A stretch of 54,969 bases of DNA from Candidatus Omnitrophota bacterium (GTDB taxonomy: Bacteria; Omnitrophota; Gorgyraeia; Duberdicusellales; 4484-171). The position numbers were made by a program, and so were the translations under genes. The notes under the pieces are model-generated. The model worked only from the letters and a program-made list of their open reading frames with translations. It made no database searches and was not told where the DNA came from. Positions 14,430 to 54,860 of this stretch are shown here, one piece after another. Within the stretch, counting starts at the first letter, position 1, and each line of letters opens with the position of its first letter. The stretch covers positions 1-54,969 of the forward strand of contig JAQUWY010000003.1 of the NCBI GenBank assembly GCA_028692655.1, written 5' to 3'.

Positions 14430-14972
14430 CTAGCTTGCATTTTACCTCAATATTTCCGGCTTGTAAACCACCTCTTAAACAGTAATCTTGCTTAAAAAAT
14501 TCATACCCCTCGCCATATACCATGTTGCAAACCCGCATTGCAATAAGGTTCAGCCTGCGGTTCTCGGTTTGCGGTTTTGCTTCTTTAGTTTTTATGTTTT
14601 TTAGTCTTTTGGTTTTTATGTAATCTAGACTTACAGCTTGAAGCTTGAAGCTTATAGCCTTTTCCGGGGTTTTTGTTTTTTTGTTTTTTGGTTTTCTATC
14701 TTTCAGTTCTTTCGTTCTCAGTTTTTACGTTTTTCTGTTTTTATGTCTTTCAGTTTTTTGGTTTTCCCGTTTCTTGGTTTCCTGGTTCTTTCGTTTTTCG
14801 GTTTTTACGTTTTTATGTTTTTTGGTTTCCTGGTCTTCCCAAATTATCAATTATCAGTTATCAATTATTACTTCTCAACCTTAACCTTAGCCTTAGCCTT
14901 TATGCTCTGTGGACTGCTTGCCCTGAGCCCTTCGATTTCACTCAGGATAAACGTAGTCGAAGGGTGGCCTGT
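14430..14972. repeat. Non-coding mosaic repeat block between coaB and coaC
   Basis: No gene. In order: CGGTTTGC-type 7-mers (about 14550-14580); GTTTTTAT 8-mers (about 14585-14622); four CTTGAAG-type 7-mers (about 14629-14660); a GTTTTTNN 8-mer array (about 14675-14850); ATTATCA 7-mers (about 14841-14870); AACCTT/AGCCTT 6-mers (about 14877-14900). The last part, 14930-14972, has CCTTCGATTT...GTCGAAGGG arms that can pair. About 14527-14900 is closely repeated, inverted, at 19465-19790. The block supplies the last codons and stop of coaB. Confidence 0.8.
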
Positions 14973-15592
14973 CAACTGCCTGCCCTGACAATCTTATCCA
15001 GTACCAAAGCAAGCTGTTTCTGGGAATTAACCGAAACAACTTCTTTGGCTCCGTTGATAACAAATCGCTTGCAGCCTGAGGATAAGTCTTTTAAGGAGTT
15101 AGCAACGACGAAGTCACTCTTATTTTCTTTGAGGCTCCTGAACGCAGCTTGAATAAGATTTTTGCGGTTAGCCTGGAGTTTGAATTGAATAATTTTAGCT
15201 TTGGGGGCAAGCCGGCGCATAGAAGTTATTACCTTTGGCAAAGGAACCAACTCCAGCCTTAGCTTACTTTTCCCGGAAGGCGCTTTACCCTTAAAAGTAT
15301 TTTTAGGGCGATAATCGCTGACTGCCGCGGTATGGATAATCGCGTCAAACCTTTCTTCTCGCAGGCATTTTAAGACCTGGGCCTTAAATTCACTGAAATA
15401 ATGGTAACAAACGGCCTTTGGCCCCTTTACCTCTCCCACACAGTGAGGGTTTATTATTAAAGTAACCTTGTGCCCTTTATTTTTTAAGGCTTTTGCCAGG
15501 TACAAGCCGGTTTTGCCGCTGAATCGGTTAGTTAAAATTCTTGCTTCGTCAACTTTTACCCAGGTAGCTCCGGCAGTAATCAAAACTTTCAT
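14972..15592 (-). CDS. coaB: Phosphopantothenate-cysteine ligase (stand-alone CoaB)
   Basis: CoaB joins cysteine to 4'-phosphopantothenate, the step before CoaC. The 206 residues begin with MKVLITAGATWVKVDEARILTNRFSGKTG, matching the nucleotide-binding start of CoaB, and have HTAAVSDYRP near residue 89 and KAPSGKSKLRLELVPLPKVI. The start overlaps ttcA by four bases (ATGA). The last codons read into repeat DNA (RAGS then stop), so the original C-terminus may have been replaced. It precedes coaC in transcription, the reverse of the order in fused CoaBC. Confidence 0.93.
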   Translation of the reverse strand: MKVLITAGATWVKVDEARILTNRFSGKTGLYLAKALKNKGHKVTLIINPHCVGEVKGPKAVCYHYFSEFKAQVLKCLREERFDAIIHTAAVSDYRPKNTFKGKAPSGKSKLRLELVPLPKVITSMRRLAPKAKIIQFKLQANRKNLIQAAFRSLKENKSDFVVANSLKDLSSGCKRFVINGAKEVVSVNSQKQLALVLDKIVRAGS

Positions 15593-16326
15593 AAAAGATA
15601 ACCTTTTTTTATTCTCTTCAAGGAACGAAATATATTCTTTTTAACATAAGGGCATTCTTTTTCTAAACCTTCCAGCATTCCTTTAACCAGATTCCGGCGG
15701 CTCCGCTTTCCGTAAGGACATTCATAGTGCGTATCGGGAAAAGAAAATCTCGAAGCAAAATCAAGAATTTCTTTTTTTTCAATATAGCATAAAGGACGGA
15801 TTATTTTAAGTTTTCCTCCGAACATCTCTAAGGCCGGAGGAGAAACGCTTACCTCTCCCCGAAAGCACATATTCATCAATATGGTCTCGGTCATATCATC
15901 TATATTATGCCCTAAAGAGACTTTATTGCAATTATGTTCTCTGGCGGTTTCAAACAAAATCCTTCTTCTCATCCAGGAACACCAAAAACAGCCTACGCCT
16001 TCAGTATTCAACTCCAATTTTTTAACTGTATAATTAATCCCGCAGGAGTCAAGATATTCAAAAAGAGCCGGCCTATCCAACTTAACAAAACTGGTATCCA
16101 CAAAGCAGGCGATTATCTCAAAATTAATCGGGATACGTTTCTGCCTCATGCAGAAAAGCTTTAGCAAAGAAAGGCTATCAACACCTCCGGAAACCCCGAT
16201 TAGAATCCTATCCCCTTCTGAAAGCATATTGTAATCAGCAATCGCCTTACCCATGATTTTGTAAAGGCGTTTTACAATGCCCCTGAGAGGAACTTCTTCC
16301 TTATTCTTTAAAACTGTTTCATTCAT
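15589..16326 (-). CDS. ttcA: PP-loop tRNA thiolase, TtcA-type
   Basis: The 245-residue protein has the ATP pyrophosphatase loop ILIGVSGGVDSLSL near residue 41, the CxxC motif in CFWCSWMRRR near 113, and LGHNIDDMTETILMNM near 138. These are typical of TtcA, which makes 2-thiocytidine in tRNA using an iron-sulfur cluster. A C-terminal CPYGKRSRR stretch is family-like. Other members of this PP-loop group modify uridine 34, so the target base is not certain. It follows pyk by 34 bases. Confidence 0.85.
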   Translation of the reverse strand: MNETVLKNKEEVPLRGIVKRLYKIMGKAIADYNMLSEGDRILIGVSGGVDSLSLLKLFCMRQKRIPINFEIIACFVDTSFVKLDRPALFEYLDSCGINYTVKKLELNTEGVGCFWCSWMRRRILFETAREHNCNKVSLGHNIDDMTETILMNMCFRGEVSVSPPALEMFGGKLKIIRPLCYIEKKEILDFASRFSFPDTHYECPYGKRSRRNLVKGMLEGLEKECPYVKKNIFRSLKRIKKGYLL

Positions 16327-17399: not shown

Positions 17400-19247
17400 T
17401 TAAATCTCCCGCTTGCGGGTAGAAGATAATATCAACATTCTTAAAGAATCGCTGTCTTTCATCCGCATCCAATTTTCGTAAAAACCTTTTTCTCTGACAA
17501 TCTGAGCTATGGCCATCAAAGTCCTTAAATGAAAATTTCTTTCATCGAGAGAGCCGGCTAAGACAAAAATAATATGTATTGGCGGTTCTTGCTCCGAAAA
17601 GATTATGCCTTCCCTGGCCCTGACAAGTATTACTTCAAACTTGCTTTTACCTTCAACGACGATATGCGGAATAGCTAAGCCCTTTTCAATAACGGTATGA
17701 GACTCCTGCTCTCTTCTTATTAAAAGCTCTTTGATCTTGCCCTGGTTGACATCCAAGCGAGAAGAAAGCGTCCTTGAAATAAGTTCGAAAAAATCATCCC
17801 AGGACTTTTTTTCCTTTATATCAAAAACGGGGCAAGCTTCAATTAAGTGGTCGAACCTATCTTTATTTACCTTATCTCTTTCATGCAGGATATCTTTTAA
17901 CTCATCCTCCAGGGAATTATCAACGAGTTCTCTGGCGGTAACTCTTTCTACGATATGCATAAGGGCTGAGTGCCGTTTTATGGTGCGGGCTGAAAAAAGA
18001 AACCATATAAAGCTCGCCCCTACAAAGAAAAGGCTTATAAGTAAGGGAACTTTTCCCATAGTAAAGATCAAAAAACTATACCCTACAATAGCGGTTATTT
18101 GAAGCCAGGGATAAAACGGAGATATAAAGGTAGGCTTATAATTTATCATTTTGCTTTCCCGCATAATTATTACAGAAAAATTCTCAAATATAAATAGCAT
18201 TATCATAAGAGTAGAAGCGGTCTTAACTAAATTTTCCAAATTCAAAAGAAGAATCAAAGAAAGCATAAATATACCGGTAACAATAATGGCGATGTAAGGT
18301 GTGCCATACTTTTTAGAAAGTAAAGAAAACCTGGCGGGAAGAAAATCATCTTTGGCCATGGCAAAAGGCACGCGGGAAGACGACAATATCCCGGCATTAG
18401 CAGTAGTTATAAAAGCTGTCATGGCAGCCAAAGATAAAAACACTCCAAACCAAAGCCCCCCCATACTCGTAGCTCCCCGGGTAAGAGGTGTAAGCGTAGA
18501 CGCCAAAGCCCGCGGCGGCAAAATTCCTATAGTAACCGCTACGCACAAACAGTAAAGAATTTGAACAACCAGAAAAGATAAAAGCATACCCAGAGGGATA
18601 GTACGGGAAGGATTATGTGTATCTTCGGCAATAGAAGCAACTTTGGTTAATCCTCCATAGGAAATAAAAATCATTCCTATAATAGAAAAAAAAGGATAAA
18701 TCCTAGCAGGAAACAGGGGACGAAAATTGCCAAGATTTATATGCTTCAAACCCAAGATACCGTACAAAACACAGGCGGTAAGCAAAAACACGACTAAGCT
18801 ATTTTGTATTTTGGCTCCAACCTTAACGCTAAAAAGATTTATCACCACAAAAAAGATACAGAAACAGGCAGCAACAAGCTTAATCTGTAAATATCCCGCC
18901 TGAGGTATAAAAAACTGCAAAAACGCGCCTATACCAATAAGAGCGAAAGCGCTTTTAAGAGCTATGGAAAACCAATTTGACAAGCCGCCAAAAATACCCA
19001 AAAATGGACCGAAACTGCGTTCAATAAAAAAATAAGCTCCGCCGTATTTAGGCATAGCTGTGATAAGCTCAGCCTTACTGAAGATTGAAGGCAGCATCAG
19101 CAACCCGGCTAAAAAATAAGCTATAATAATTGAAGGCCCGATATAACCATAGGCAATAGCCGGAAGGACAAACAGGCCGGAAGATATCATCGCGCCGGTA
19201 GCAATACAAAAAATATCCCATAAATTAAGCTTATTTTTAGATATCAT
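17400..19247 (-). CDS. APC-type amino-acid permease fused to a PTS EIIA (type 2) domain
   Basis: Residues 1 to about 420 form an APC superfamily transporter of about 12 helices. It has the helix 1 motif ATGAMISSGLFVLP, SKAELITAMPKYGGAYFFIERSFGP, and SYGGLTKVASIAEDTHNPSRTIP. From about residue 460 a soluble EIIA domain of the fructose/PtsN type follows, with SRLDVNQGKIKELLIRREQE, the phosphorylatable His528 in GLAIPHIVV, and an intact C-terminus. The domain could report PTS phosphorylation state to the transporter. The substrate is unknown; an amino acid is likely from the family. Confidence 0.9.
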   Translation of the reverse strand: MISKNKLNLWDIFCIATGAMISSGLFVLPAIAYGYIGPSIIIAYFLAGLLMLPSIFSKAELITAMPKYGGAYFFIERSFGPFLGIFGGLSNWFSIALKSAFALIGIGAFLQFFIPQAGYLQIKLVAACFCIFFVVINLFSVKVGAKIQNSLVVFLLTACVLYGILGLKHINLGNFRPLFPARIYPFFSIIGMIFISYGGLTKVASIAEDTHNPSRTIPLGMLLSFLVVQILYCLCVAVTIGILPPRALASTLTPLTRGATSMGGLWFGVFLSLAAMTAFITTANAGILSSSRVPFAMAKDDFLPARFSLLSKKYGTPYIAIIVTGIFMLSLILLLNLENLVKTASTLMIMLFIFENFSVIIMRESKMINYKPTFISPFYPWLQITAIVGYSFLIFTMGKVPLLISLFFVGASFIWFLFSARTIKRHSALMHIVERVTARELVDNSLEDELKDILHERDKVNKDRFDHLIEACPVFDIKEKKSWDDFFELISRTLSSRLDVNQGKIKELLIRREQESHTVIEKGLAIPHIVVEGKSKFEVILVRAREGIIFSEQEPPIHIIFVLAGSLDERNFHLRTLMAIAQIVREKGFYENWMRMKDSDSLRMLILSSTRKREI

Positions 19248-19464
19248 AGCATAGAAATAATATCATAATTCGGCTAAGGGATAAAGGACAAAATATACCG
19301 CAAGCTATATTTAGGTTAAGGTTAAGGTTAAGGTTTAGGCTGAAATTTAAAAAAGCCCGTAGTCCTTATGTAGTTAGTTGAATTAATTAAATTAGCCGAA
19401 TTTATTAAATTAATTGAATTTGAACTAAGAATGGTTACAAAAAACCTCGCTGCGATGAACCTAG
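19248..19464. repeat. Non-coding region with GGTTAA hexamers and a 9-bp array
   Basis: No gene. About 19312-19340 is AGGTTA/AGGTTT hexamers, the reverse of the CCTTAA units at other blocks. About 19374-19430 consists of five degenerate 9-mers: TTGAATTAA, TTAAATTAG, CCGAATTTA, TTAAATTAA, TTGAATTTG. Confidence 0.65.
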
Positions 19465-19827
19465 TTGCAATGCGGGTTTGCAACAAGGTCTGATAACTGA
19501 TAATTGATAATTTGGGAAGACCAGGAAACCAAAAAACATAAAAACGTAAAAACCGAAAAACGAAAGAACCAAGAAACCAAGAAACGGAAGAACTGAAAAA
19601 CTGAAAGACATAAAAACAGAAAAACGTAAAAACTGAGAACGAAAGAACTGAAAGATAGAAAACCAAAAAACAAAAAAACAAAAACCCCGGAAAAGGCTAT
19701 AAGCTTCAAGCCGCAAGCCTAGATTACATAAAAACCAAAAGACAGAAAAACATAAAAACTAAAGAAGCAAAACTGCAAACCGCAAACCGAGAACCGAACA
19801 CCGTAAACCGATAGCTTAAAACGTGAA
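19465..19827. repeat. Inverted copy of the mosaic repeat block (8-bp CNNAAAAA array)
   Basis: About 19500-19690 is the reverse complement of the GTTTTTNN array at 14675-14850, reading as C-N-N-(A/G)5 units such as CGTAAAAA, CCAAGAAA, CTGAAAGA. It is followed by CTTCAAG/CCGCAAG 7-mers (about 19700-19722) and then ACCGCAA/ACCGAGA/ACCGTAA 7-mers (about 19775-19815). AATGCGGGTTTGCAAC at 19469-19484 matches the edge of the 14527 copy. The two copies flank coaB, ttcA, pyk and the permease. Confidence 0.8.
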
Positions 19828-52348: not shown

Positions 52349-54109
52349 TTAGATCATCAAGATATGGTAAAAGTCTTCTTTAAGAATTTTACGTAACTCG
52401 TCCTGAAGGTATTTCTCTACTTCTTTGGAAGTATATAGTTCTAAGACACCGGAAACAACCTTGCGGGCGTCTGCCAGCTTAACATTGCTGATGAGCTCTT
52501 TTATCTTTGGTATTTGAGGAGGCGGCATACTGAAGCTATCAAGCCCCATACCTAAAAGCAAAAAAGCAAATATCGGCTCCCCTGACATCTCCCCGCACAT
52601 GCCTACCCATATTTTATTAGCGTGAGCTACTTCAATTACACTTTTTACCAAACGTAATACAGCCGGATGACCCGGTTCGTACAAGTAAGCCACCTTTTCA
52701 TTTCCTCTATCGACAGCCAGAGAATACTGAATCAAATCATTTGTCCCGATACTGAAAAAATCACTCTCTTTCGCCAAAACATCAGCAGTGATGGCCGCTG
52801 AAGGAACTTCTATCATAGCGCCAACTGAAATGTTTTCGTCAAATTTTTTTCCTTCGTTCCTTAATTCTTTTTTACAGTCTTCAAGAAGTTCCTTTGCCTG
52901 CCTTAACTCTTCTATCCCCGAAATCATAGGAAACATAACTCTGACGTTCTTATCTACTGAGGCCCGTAATATAGCTCTGAGCTGAGCTTTAAAAACTTGG
53001 GGGCTGGCTAAACAAAACCGTATCGCTCTCCAACCAAGGAAGGGGCTCATCTCTTTAGGGACTTCGGGTTGAGAAAGAAACTTATCTCCTCCTATATCGA
53101 TGGTTCTAAAAATTACTTTACTGGGAGAAACTTCCTTAGCAACTTTAGCATACGCTTTATATTGCTCCTCTTCGGAAGGAAGGTCTTTGCGGCCTAAAAA
53201 TATATATTCTGTACGATACAACCCAATGCCCTCGGCACCATAATGTTTTACCAAAGAAAGTTCTTGCGGCAGTTCGATATTGGCAGAAATAACAATTTGT
53301 TTCCCATCTTTAGTGCAAGCTTTAATTTCCTTGGGAATATGGATAGCTTTTACTTCTTTCGTATAAAGAGTAGATTTTTTCTGATACTCTTTAATAATAT
53401 TTTCTGTAGGCTTGATGATGACATGGCCGGAAGAACCATCTACTATAATTTTATCTCCCGACTGTATATCCCTTGTGGCAATCTCGGCTCCCACAACAGC
53501 AGGAATGCCCAAAGTTCTTGCTATAATTGCAGTATGAGAAGTCCTTCCGCCAACATCAGTAACAAAACCTAAAATCTTCTCTTTAGGTAAAGTAGCAGTT
53601 TGTGAAGGAGCAAGGTCGTGAGCTACAACAACCACCTTATCCTGCAATTCACTTAAGCTCACGGATTTTTCTTTGAGCATAGCCCGCAAAACCCTGCGAG
53701 AGATATCTTCAATATCTACAACTCTCTCACGTAAATACTCGTCATTGAGCTTAAGCAGCGTGCCTACATATTTTTTCACACTTTGCGAAAAAGCATATTC
53801 AACGTTTACCAGCTTATTTTTTATCTGTTTTATGACATCTTCAATTAGAACCCTATCCTCCAAAACAAGAAAATGAGCTTCGAATATCCTGCCATGATCA
53901 AAGCCTATCTCTTTGGATATTTTGCTTTGAAGGTCAGAAATCTCCCTGCGTGTCTCTATTAGAGCTTCTTCAAGCCTGTATATTTCACGTGATATTTCAC
54001 TATGCAGTATCTTCCTGTGAGGTATAGAGATATCGTCTTTGCTTAAAAGCAAAGCCTTGCCTATTCCAACACCACCTGATACTGCTATTCCTTTAAGTTT
54101 AATCATCAT
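52349..54109 (-). CDS. ptsI: PTS enzyme I, phosphoenolpyruvate-protein phosphotransferase
   Basis: EI takes phosphate from PEP on a His and passes it to HPr. The phospho-His192 lies in GGRTSHTAIIARTLGIPAVVG, and the PEP-binding barrel has EGIGLYRTEYIFL, TIDIGGDKFL, RAIRFCL, GAMIEVPSAAI and GMCGEMSGEP. The 586 residues match a full-length EI. It overlaps ptsH by 11 bases. No EIIB or EIIC gene is near. Confidence 0.96.
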   Translation of the reverse strand: MMIKLKGIAVSGGVGIGKALLLSKDDISIPHRKILHSEISREIYRLEEALIETRREISDLQSKISKEIGFDHGRIFEAHFLVLEDRVLIEDVIKQIKNKLVNVEYAFSQSVKKYVGTLLKLNDEYLRERVVDIEDISRRVLRAMLKEKSVSLSELQDKVVVVAHDLAPSQTATLPKEKILGFVTDVGGRTSHTAIIARTLGIPAVVGAEIATRDIQSGDKIIVDGSSGHVIIKPTENIIKEYQKKSTLYTKEVKAIHIPKEIKACTKDGKQIVISANIELPQELSLVKHYGAEGIGLYRTEYIFLGRKDLPSEEEQYKAYAKVAKEVSPSKVIFRTIDIGGDKFLSQPEVPKEMSPFLGWRAIRFCLASPQVFKAQLRAILRASVDKNVRVMFPMISGIEELRQAKELLEDCKKELRNEGKKFDENISVGAMIEVPSAAITADVLAKESDFFSIGTNDLIQYSLAVDRGNEKVAYLYEPGHPAVLRLVKSVIEVAHANKIWVGMCGEMSGEPIFAFLLLGMGLDSFSMPPPQIPKIKELISNVKLADARKVVSGVLELYTSKEVEKYLQDELRKILKEDFYHILMI

Positions 54110-54365
54110 CAGTTTCTAAAAATTTTTTTAGATCGTCCATAGCCTCTTGGGCGTCTTCACCTTCTACCACAAGCTTTATGCCAACACCATTGTTAACTCC
54201 TAAGCTCAAAATAGCTATTATAGACTTACCATCAACGGCTTCGCCGTCTTTTTCAACTTTTACAGACGAATTGAATTTATTAGCCAGCTGTACAAAAATG
54301 GTAGCCGGACGGGCATGTAACCCATGAGCCTTGTTAACTTTTATTTCTTGTTCTATCTTCTTCAT
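54099..54365 (-). CDS. ptsH: PTS phosphocarrier HPr
   Basis: The 88-residue protein has the active-site His17 in HGLHARPATIFVQLANKF and Ser48 in DGKSIIAILSLG. Ser48 matches the regulatory Ser46 targeted by HPr kinase/phosphorylase, although no kinase gene is in the window. A C-terminal acidic run (ETDDD) overlaps the ptsI start. Partner of EI and of the EIIA domains encoded at both ends of the window. Confidence 0.95.
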   Translation of the reverse strand: MKKIEQEIKVNKAHGLHARPATIFVQLANKFNSSVKVEKDGEAVDGKSIIAILSLGVNNGVGIKLVVEGEDAQEAMDDLKKFLETDDD

Positions 54366-54389
54366 CTTATTTAGCCTGGGCCAATTTTT

Positions 54390-54860
54390 TCAGGCTACTG
54401 CCTGCTGCTGTTTATCCAGCAATTCTAAAACCTCTTTTTCGCTTTTTGAACTTTTGAGCCTCTGAACAAGGTATTTATCTCTGAACATTCGGGCTAAAAA
54501 AGCCAACATCTTGAGGTGTAGACCTGCTTCTTTTTGGTTAGAAAGAAGCAAGGCAATGATATTCACAGGCTCCTGGTCTAAAGAATCGAAATCAAGCCCT
54601 TCTTTTGATATGCCTATACAAATAATAGCATCTTTAACTAAGTTGAGGCGAGCATGGGGAAGGGCTATGTGATTGCCAATAGCAGTAGAACCAACTTCTT
54701 CGCGCTGTATGATAGTCTTAAGAATTTCCTTCTTGCTATCCTTAGATATTTTGTTTTTCTGAATAAGATGGTCAAGCATCAAAGAAATAATGCTTTTTTT
54801 ATTCTTTTGCCTCACCCCTAAAAGAATACCATCTGTGTCTAAGTAATTAAGAACGTTCAT
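54390..54860 (-). CDS. PTS EIIA domain protein, PtsN/fructose type
   Basis: A stand-alone EIIA of 156 residues: VLNYLDTDGILLGV at the start, REEVGSTAIGNHIALPHAR near 53-71 with phospho-His69, and HLKMLAFLARMFRDKYLVQRL near 134. It opens the ptsN-ptsH-ptsI-nucleotidyltransferase run and precedes ptsH by 24 bases. Without EIIB/EIIC it most likely acts in regulation, as EIIA-Ntr does. The 109 bases beyond its start, to the window end, hold nothing I can name. Confidence 0.9.
   Translation of the reverse strand: MNVLNYLDTDGILLGVRQKNKKSIISLMLDHLIQKNKISKDSKKEILKTIIQREEVGSTAIGNHIALPHARLNLVKDAIICIGISKEGLDFDSLDQEPVNIIALLLSNQKEAGLHLKMLAFLARMFRDKYLVQRLKSSKSEKEVLELLDKQQQAVA

Follow-up and report, generated by a model that had tools for sequence, protein, structure and literature searches.

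In described systems, IIA components of the phosphotransferase system (PTS) act on transporters either as a fused domain or as a separate protein. LacS of streptococci and lactobacilli carries a fused IIA domain that is phosphorylated by HPr, which alters transport; a review (PMC10710835) names LacS as the sole bacterial transporter under direct phosphorylation control, and a table in it lists the effect of phosphorylation as inhibitory. The second mode is represented by PtsN (IIANtr) of Escherichia coli, which in its unphosphorylated form binds and inhibits the antiporter YcgO (PMC11808508). PTS relays without EIIC are also known in several lineages (PMC2405797, PMC2937029). Comas et al. describe group R organisms as being without PTS transporters, with the exception of some Proteobacteria (PMC2405797), and a functional EIIC-less relay is reported for Brucella, together with a GAF-like extension as a feature of EINtr (PMC2937029).

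The stretch of DNA analysed here (the window) comprises 54,969 nucleotides from a Candidatus Omnitrophota bacterium. It encodes a permease of the APC type that continues, through a conserved linker, into an EIIA domain (Table 1). The reading preferred here, to which we assign a probability of roughly 0.68, is that HPr phosphorylates His528 of this domain, and that phosphorylation gates the amino-acid permease according to the ratio of phosphoenolpyruvate (PEP) to pyruvate. This article examines the structure, conservation and genomic surroundings of the fusion protein, and the other proteins that carry its tail.

Table 1. Features of the locus and of related proteins. Positions refer to the window unless prefixed by the handle of another stretch.
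Feature	Position	Strand	Remarks
APC permease-linker-EIIA fusion protein	17400..19247	-	615 aa, ATG start, stop codon included in coordinates
Permease part, residues 1-420	17988..19247	-	CAT/LAT-like APC fold; Pfam and structure match
Conserved linker, residues 421-470	17838..17987	-	invariant E449, L450, R457, D458, D463
EIIA domain (PF00359), residues 479-607	17427..17813	-	Pfam, structure
His528 codon, predicted phospho-acceptor	17664..17666	-	aligned with PtsN His73
Arg512 codon, invariant	17712..17714	-	aligned with PtsN Arg57
Thr518 codon, invariant	17694..17696	-	aligned with PtsN Thr63
His573 codon, invariant	17529..17531	-	aligned with PtsN His120
Short pyruvate kinase, 341 aa	16361..17386	-	barrel domain only; 13 bases behind permease stop
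PP-loop, TtcA-like protein	15589..16326	-	direction as permease
DFP (CoaB-like) gene	14972..15592	-	overlaps PP-loop gene, direction as permease
Enzyme I (EI), 586 aa	52349..54109	-	intact; no further domain in Pfam scan
HPr, 88 aa	54099..54365	-	intact
Free EIIA (PtsN/Fru type), 156 aa	54390..54860	-	intact
ATP synthase alpha-EIIA, G285	L090:449-2671 = G285:C49:10448-12670		741 aa
ATP synthase alpha-EIIA, G386	L091:543-2765 = G386:C115:11842-14064		741 aa
P-type cation ATPase with C-terminal linker-EIIA, G338	L092:1450-4737		second catalytic His replaced by Tyr
APC-EIIA-TrkA_C permease, G229	L093:437-2569		711 aa
N-terminal EIIA on P-type cation ATPase, G015	L051:1-3186		about 1062 aa, cut at stretch edge
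EIIA-CBS protein, genome of the window	L004:1483-2403 (C34)
Pyruvate kinase remnant joined to DFP gene, G019	L007:3339-4130

The permease-EIIA fusion protein

The first-pass annotation had described the protein as an APC permease with a C-terminal PtsN-like domain, and both profile and structure searches bear this out. In a Pfam scan, AA_permease_2 spans residues 7-396 (E 2e-39); PF13520 and PF00324 score 136.1 and 136.3 bits against cut-offs of 27 and 24.6, and the EIIA domain (PTS_EIIA_2) follows with an E-value of 4e-21 and 75.9 bits (cut-off 27). The model of the permease part matches 6f34 over residues 1-425 with a Z-score of 43.5, an rmsd of 2.2 Å and 419 aligned residues; against 6f34 and 5oqt together, Z is 43 at an rmsd of 2.2-2.3 Å, which identifies an APC fold of the LeuT type. 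For the narrower permease subfamily TIGR00909 of NCBIfam, the score of 206.3 stays below the cut-off of 556.8. The protein is a predicted amino-acid permease, and its substrate is presumably not a sugar.

Structural alignments of the full-length model spanned residues 1-440 only, and the tail was therefore folded and searched separately. Modelled alone, the EIIA domain reaches a mean pLDDT of 93.7 and resembles E. coli IIANtr (1a6j) with a TM-score of 0.82 and an rmsd of 2.2 Å; the linker is modelled with lower confidence (pLDDT 63-77). The domain falls short of the PtsN equivalog TIGR01419, with a score of 25 against a cut-off of 138.7. It has a PtsN-like fold, yet is not PtsN itself.

Distribution of the fusion

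Among 384 Omnitrophota genomes, 174 contain some match to the fusion profile. A fusion was counted when the match begins in the permease and extends into EIIA at least as far as position 572; among the matches listed, at least 83 genomes carry such a fusion, at least 77 of them at full length, and six of the 83 lie outside the class of the window. A closer set of 58 relatives, which includes the genome of the window itself, yields 33 genomes with a match at E 1e-20. In 29 of these the match reaches EIIA, in one (G031) the end of the contig truncates it, and the remaining three have the permease only. A scan of genome contigs gave eight loci; seven are fusions, or fragments, from Omnitrophota, and the eighth is a plain permease from Chitinophaga.

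These numbers make an artefact of assembly or gene calling practically impossible, and it was ruled out: the window gene is a single open frame, and the full-length fusion recurs in at least 77 of 384 independent assemblies. Nothing about the window gene itself points to an artefact; that such errors occur in the group is illustrated by G001 (CP070807), where the permease gene is split over two distant places (L017 and L041) of a chromosome labelled 'complete'. A gap of 100 N lies at each break, and the split is probably a scaffolding error.

The literature searched, which comprised titles and the beginnings of abstracts and had key reviews outside its coverage, gave no description of an APC-EIIA fusion; we do not claim the fusion as previously unreported.

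The catalytic site and the linker

Alignment with the sequence of IIANtr, from which the residue numbers of the latter were counted, pairs the four catalytic residues of Table 1 with their PtsN counterparts and, in addition, E513 with E58 and P527 with P72. Conservation was assessed on 45 distinct fused frames, from which identical copies and frames ending before the end of the domain had been left out. Arg512, Thr518, His528 and His573 are invariant in all 45, at pairwise identities of 38-97%; an earlier comparison of the window with 28 loci had given 29 of 29. Just 16 of the 146 columns in residues 470-615 are invariant, and R512, E513, T518, P527, H528 and H573 are all among them. The first-pass annotation had located the phospho-histidine at His528 in the motif GLAIPHIVV and had regarded its loss in orthologues as counter-evidence. 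The residue is where it was placed, and none of the 45 orthologues has lost it, down to 38% identity. Such conservation is far beyond chance, and phosphorylation of His528 by HPr is predicted.

Conserved catalytic residues would also be expected if the tail were a phosphoryl sink or sensor that receives phosphate from HPr and reports amino-acid status to the relay or to other EIIA proteins, while the rate of the permease stays constant. Several EIIA proteins per genome are served by one EI/HPr pair in the relatives, and could compete for phosphate. What speaks against a mere reporter is the linker, whose five invariant residues (Table 1) are kept in 45 of 45 sequences, a strictness equal to that of the catalytic site. 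This suggests a mechanical link between EIIA and the transporter, and we regard a sink or sensor at constant permease rate as unlikely.

The phosphorelay

EI, HPr and a free EIIA, which had been reported at 52349-54860, are all three present and intact. The translations contain HGLHARPA in HPr and GGRTSHTAIIA in EI, which we take to be the phospho-histidine motifs. The EI consists of the three EI domains only; it has no N-terminal GAF domain and in this respect is unlike the EI of proteobacterial PTSNtr. EI was detected in 54 of the 58 relatives, HPr in 53 and EIIA in all 58.

The search for EIIC covered two families, PF02378 and PF03609 (EII-Sor); neither family was found in any of the 58 genomes, which are incomplete, while the positive controls matched. 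With no EIIC of these two families, no acceptors other than EIIA domains were seen, and the relay looks purely regulatory, no sugar-transport part of it having been found. HPr kinase likewise gave no match above the cut-off in the 58 genomes; three controls matched, and Bacillus subtilis, which has HPr kinase, was not among them.

EI was not found in G016, G020, G033 and G042, and HPr was found neither in these nor in G022; the completeness of the five assemblies is 74, 91, 84, 93 and 68%, respectively. All five carry the fusion, and there is no fusion-less genome without EI/HPr. The presence of the fusion in all four EI-less relatives speaks mildly against a dependence on EI, unless assembly gaps are responsible. 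Since the pts genes lie side by side in the window and the assemblies are incomplete, the lack of a single contig could account for most of the absences; this is the simplest reason, though not a proven one. G033 lacks EI/HPr, whereas its congeners G003 and G026 possess them. The co-occurrence of EI/HPr and fusion is uninformative and slightly adverse, because EI is nearly universal and its four exceptions carry the fusion.

The same absences could be taken to mean that the tail has been freed from phosphorylation and serves as a structural or docking domain, for instance in dimerisation or in binding membrane partners. A structure search found EIIA-like folds in the cytosolic domains of the band 3/AE2 exchangers, and the tyrosine in the P-type ATPase copy (Table 1) suggests that phosphotransfer may be relaxed there. 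A docking domain would have no need of the full catalytic set that all 45 permease fusions retain unchanged, and this role for the tail is rated as quite improbable.

Coupling to pyruvate kinase

Pyruvate kinase converts PEP to pyruvate, and the PTS is driven by the PEP:pyruvate ratio. The gene that follows the permease in the window encodes a short pyruvate kinase, the only one found in that genome. The same order, permease and then pyruvate kinase, occurs in nine genomes of nine genera, in each of which it is the sole pyruvate kinase match. Relative to the permease stop, the nearest candidate start lies at -8 to +13 bases, four of the nine genomes show a 4-base ATG overlap, and no terminator-like site was found between the two genes. 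The PP-loop gene further downstream is probably on the permease transcript as well, as we infer.

Pyruvate kinase stands behind the permease in 9 of 12 genomes, window included, that have a permease at least 55% identical to that of the window and downstream sequence available. In G019, an N-terminal remnant of pyruvate kinase runs in frame into the DFP gene; in G016 and G006, the start of the ORF that follows the permease resembles, by eye, that of DFP. The other 33 distinct sequences show no pyruvate kinase in the 371-1503 bases downstream. As 36 of the 45 sequences show no pyruvate kinase beside the permease, the enzyme is best seen as a lineage-specific partner. As it converts PEP to pyruvate, its coupling to the permease gene supports the control of the permease by PEP/pyruvate that the first-pass annotation had proposed, and provides the strongest circumstantial support for it.

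On the other side of the permease gene, between it and its upstream neighbour, A-rich tandem repeats with periods of 6 to 48 occupy positions 19313-19810; they give rise to spurious Phe-rich ORFs.

Proposed mode of action

In the proposed gating mechanism, the phosphoryl group would pass from PEP to EI, then to HPr, and finally to His528 in the EIIA tail of the permease itself. This tail would be held on the cytoplasmic side by the conserved linker that follows the last membrane helix, and the way it docks on the transporter would depend on its phospho-state. At a low PEP:pyruvate ratio, unphosphorylated EIIA may hold the permease back; at a high ratio, phosphorylation would free it. Pyruvate kinase would be made together with the permease and would set the ratio to which the tail responds. 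The inhibitory role given to the unphosphorylated tail is borrowed by analogy from PtsN and its silencing of YcgO; the inhibitory effect of phosphorylation in LacS means that control in the opposite direction is also possible.

The linker-EIIA cassette on other proteins

Matches to the linker and EIIA alone, in the 384-genome search, led to other carriers. In G285 and G386, the cassette forms the C-terminus of the alpha subunit of ATP synthase F1. The gene in G285 lies in an operon with those for the a, b, delta, gamma and beta subunits. The two proteins are 92% identical (89% at the DNA level), so that two assemblies agree, and their tails keep R, E, T and both histidines. Each of the two genomes has a second alpha-type frame of 498 aa that is tail-less. 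A full-length match to alpha-EIIA occurs in only 2 of the 383 genomes examined, which belong to one genus. The cassette is further found at the C-terminus of a P-type cation ATPase in G338, and G229 has a permease form in which TrkA_C follows EIIA.

EIIA domains also occur in other settings. Frames resembling Na+/H+ exchangers with a C-terminal EIIA are present at L044-L050, L052 and L053 (L044, L046, L050 and L053 were Pfam-scanned), and in several of them the second histidine was not seen. A P-type cation ATPase in G015 bears EIIA at its N-terminus, relatives encode HTH-EIIA proteins (L054, L055), and the window's own genome an EIIA-CBS protein. The phospho-acceptor histidine is kept in all 19 EIIA sequences of this other-fusion set.

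A wider interpretation, offered tentatively and at somewhat less than even odds, is that the Omnitrophota PTS, without sugar transport, may be a wired-in energy governor. Its mobile linker-EIIA cassette would sit on APC permeases, a P-type ATPase and, in a single genus, the alpha subunit of F1Fo, with related EIIA domains on Na+/H+ exchangers, a second P-type ATPase, CBS pairs and DNA-binding domains. Through histidine phosphorylation, PEP:pyruvate would then govern directly the uptake of amino acids, the flux of ions and even the synthesis of ATP, and the co-expressed pyruvate kinase would close the loop. Should the gating proposed for the permease hold, the fusion would be a second, unrelated case beside LacS, with another fold and another IIA, and widespread in one phylum. 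The purpose of an EIIC-less PTS would be visible in outputs built into the very proteins that they regulate. With outputs fused to targets, the question can be tested protein by protein, with no need to culture the organism.

Comparison with known systems

GkApcT, a bacterial CAT homologue (5oqt/6f34), has the same fold as the permease part of the fusion; its solved chain of 456-458 residues is without a cytoplasmic regulatory domain, unlike the fusion. The closest relatives in plasmid records, among the matches listed, are haloarchaeal APC permeases with 36-38% identity over permease and linker. Against the fusion profile, haloarchaeal APC-Usp permeases score 474-481 bits, with the match ending at position 442-452, and a Usp tail is present in all four plasmid relatives examined, out of 40 listed among 1260 matching records. 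Permease and linker are thus common to both types up to about profile position 450, beyond which the haloarchaeal proteins have Usp whereas the Omnitrophota protein has EIIA in that place; the Pfam scan of the latter found no Usp domain (PF00582). APC-Usp and APC-EIIA appear to share a single chassis on which the sensors can be exchanged.

PtsN and YcgO provide a precedent for what is proposed here, in that the phospho-state of a IIA of the PF00359 type determines how active a transporter in the membrane is. Whereas PtsN diffuses as a protein of its own, the regulator in the fusion is a covalent part of the permease.

LacS and the fusion are alike in being secondary transporters with a IIA domain fused to the C-terminus, with gating a prediction in the present case. 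LacS combines a GPH symporter with IIAGlc, neither of which was detected in the Pfam scan of the fusion protein; that scan gives only APC and PF00359, so that a LeuT-fold permease is combined with a IIA of the Fru/Mtl/Ntr family. A further difference from LacS is that neither of the two EIIC families searched turned up in the genome, and that the presumed substrate is other than sugar. Set against LacS, the fusion is another IIA-fused transporter, distinct in its IIA family, its fold and its pyruvate kinase partner, and with no sugar PTS found beside it.
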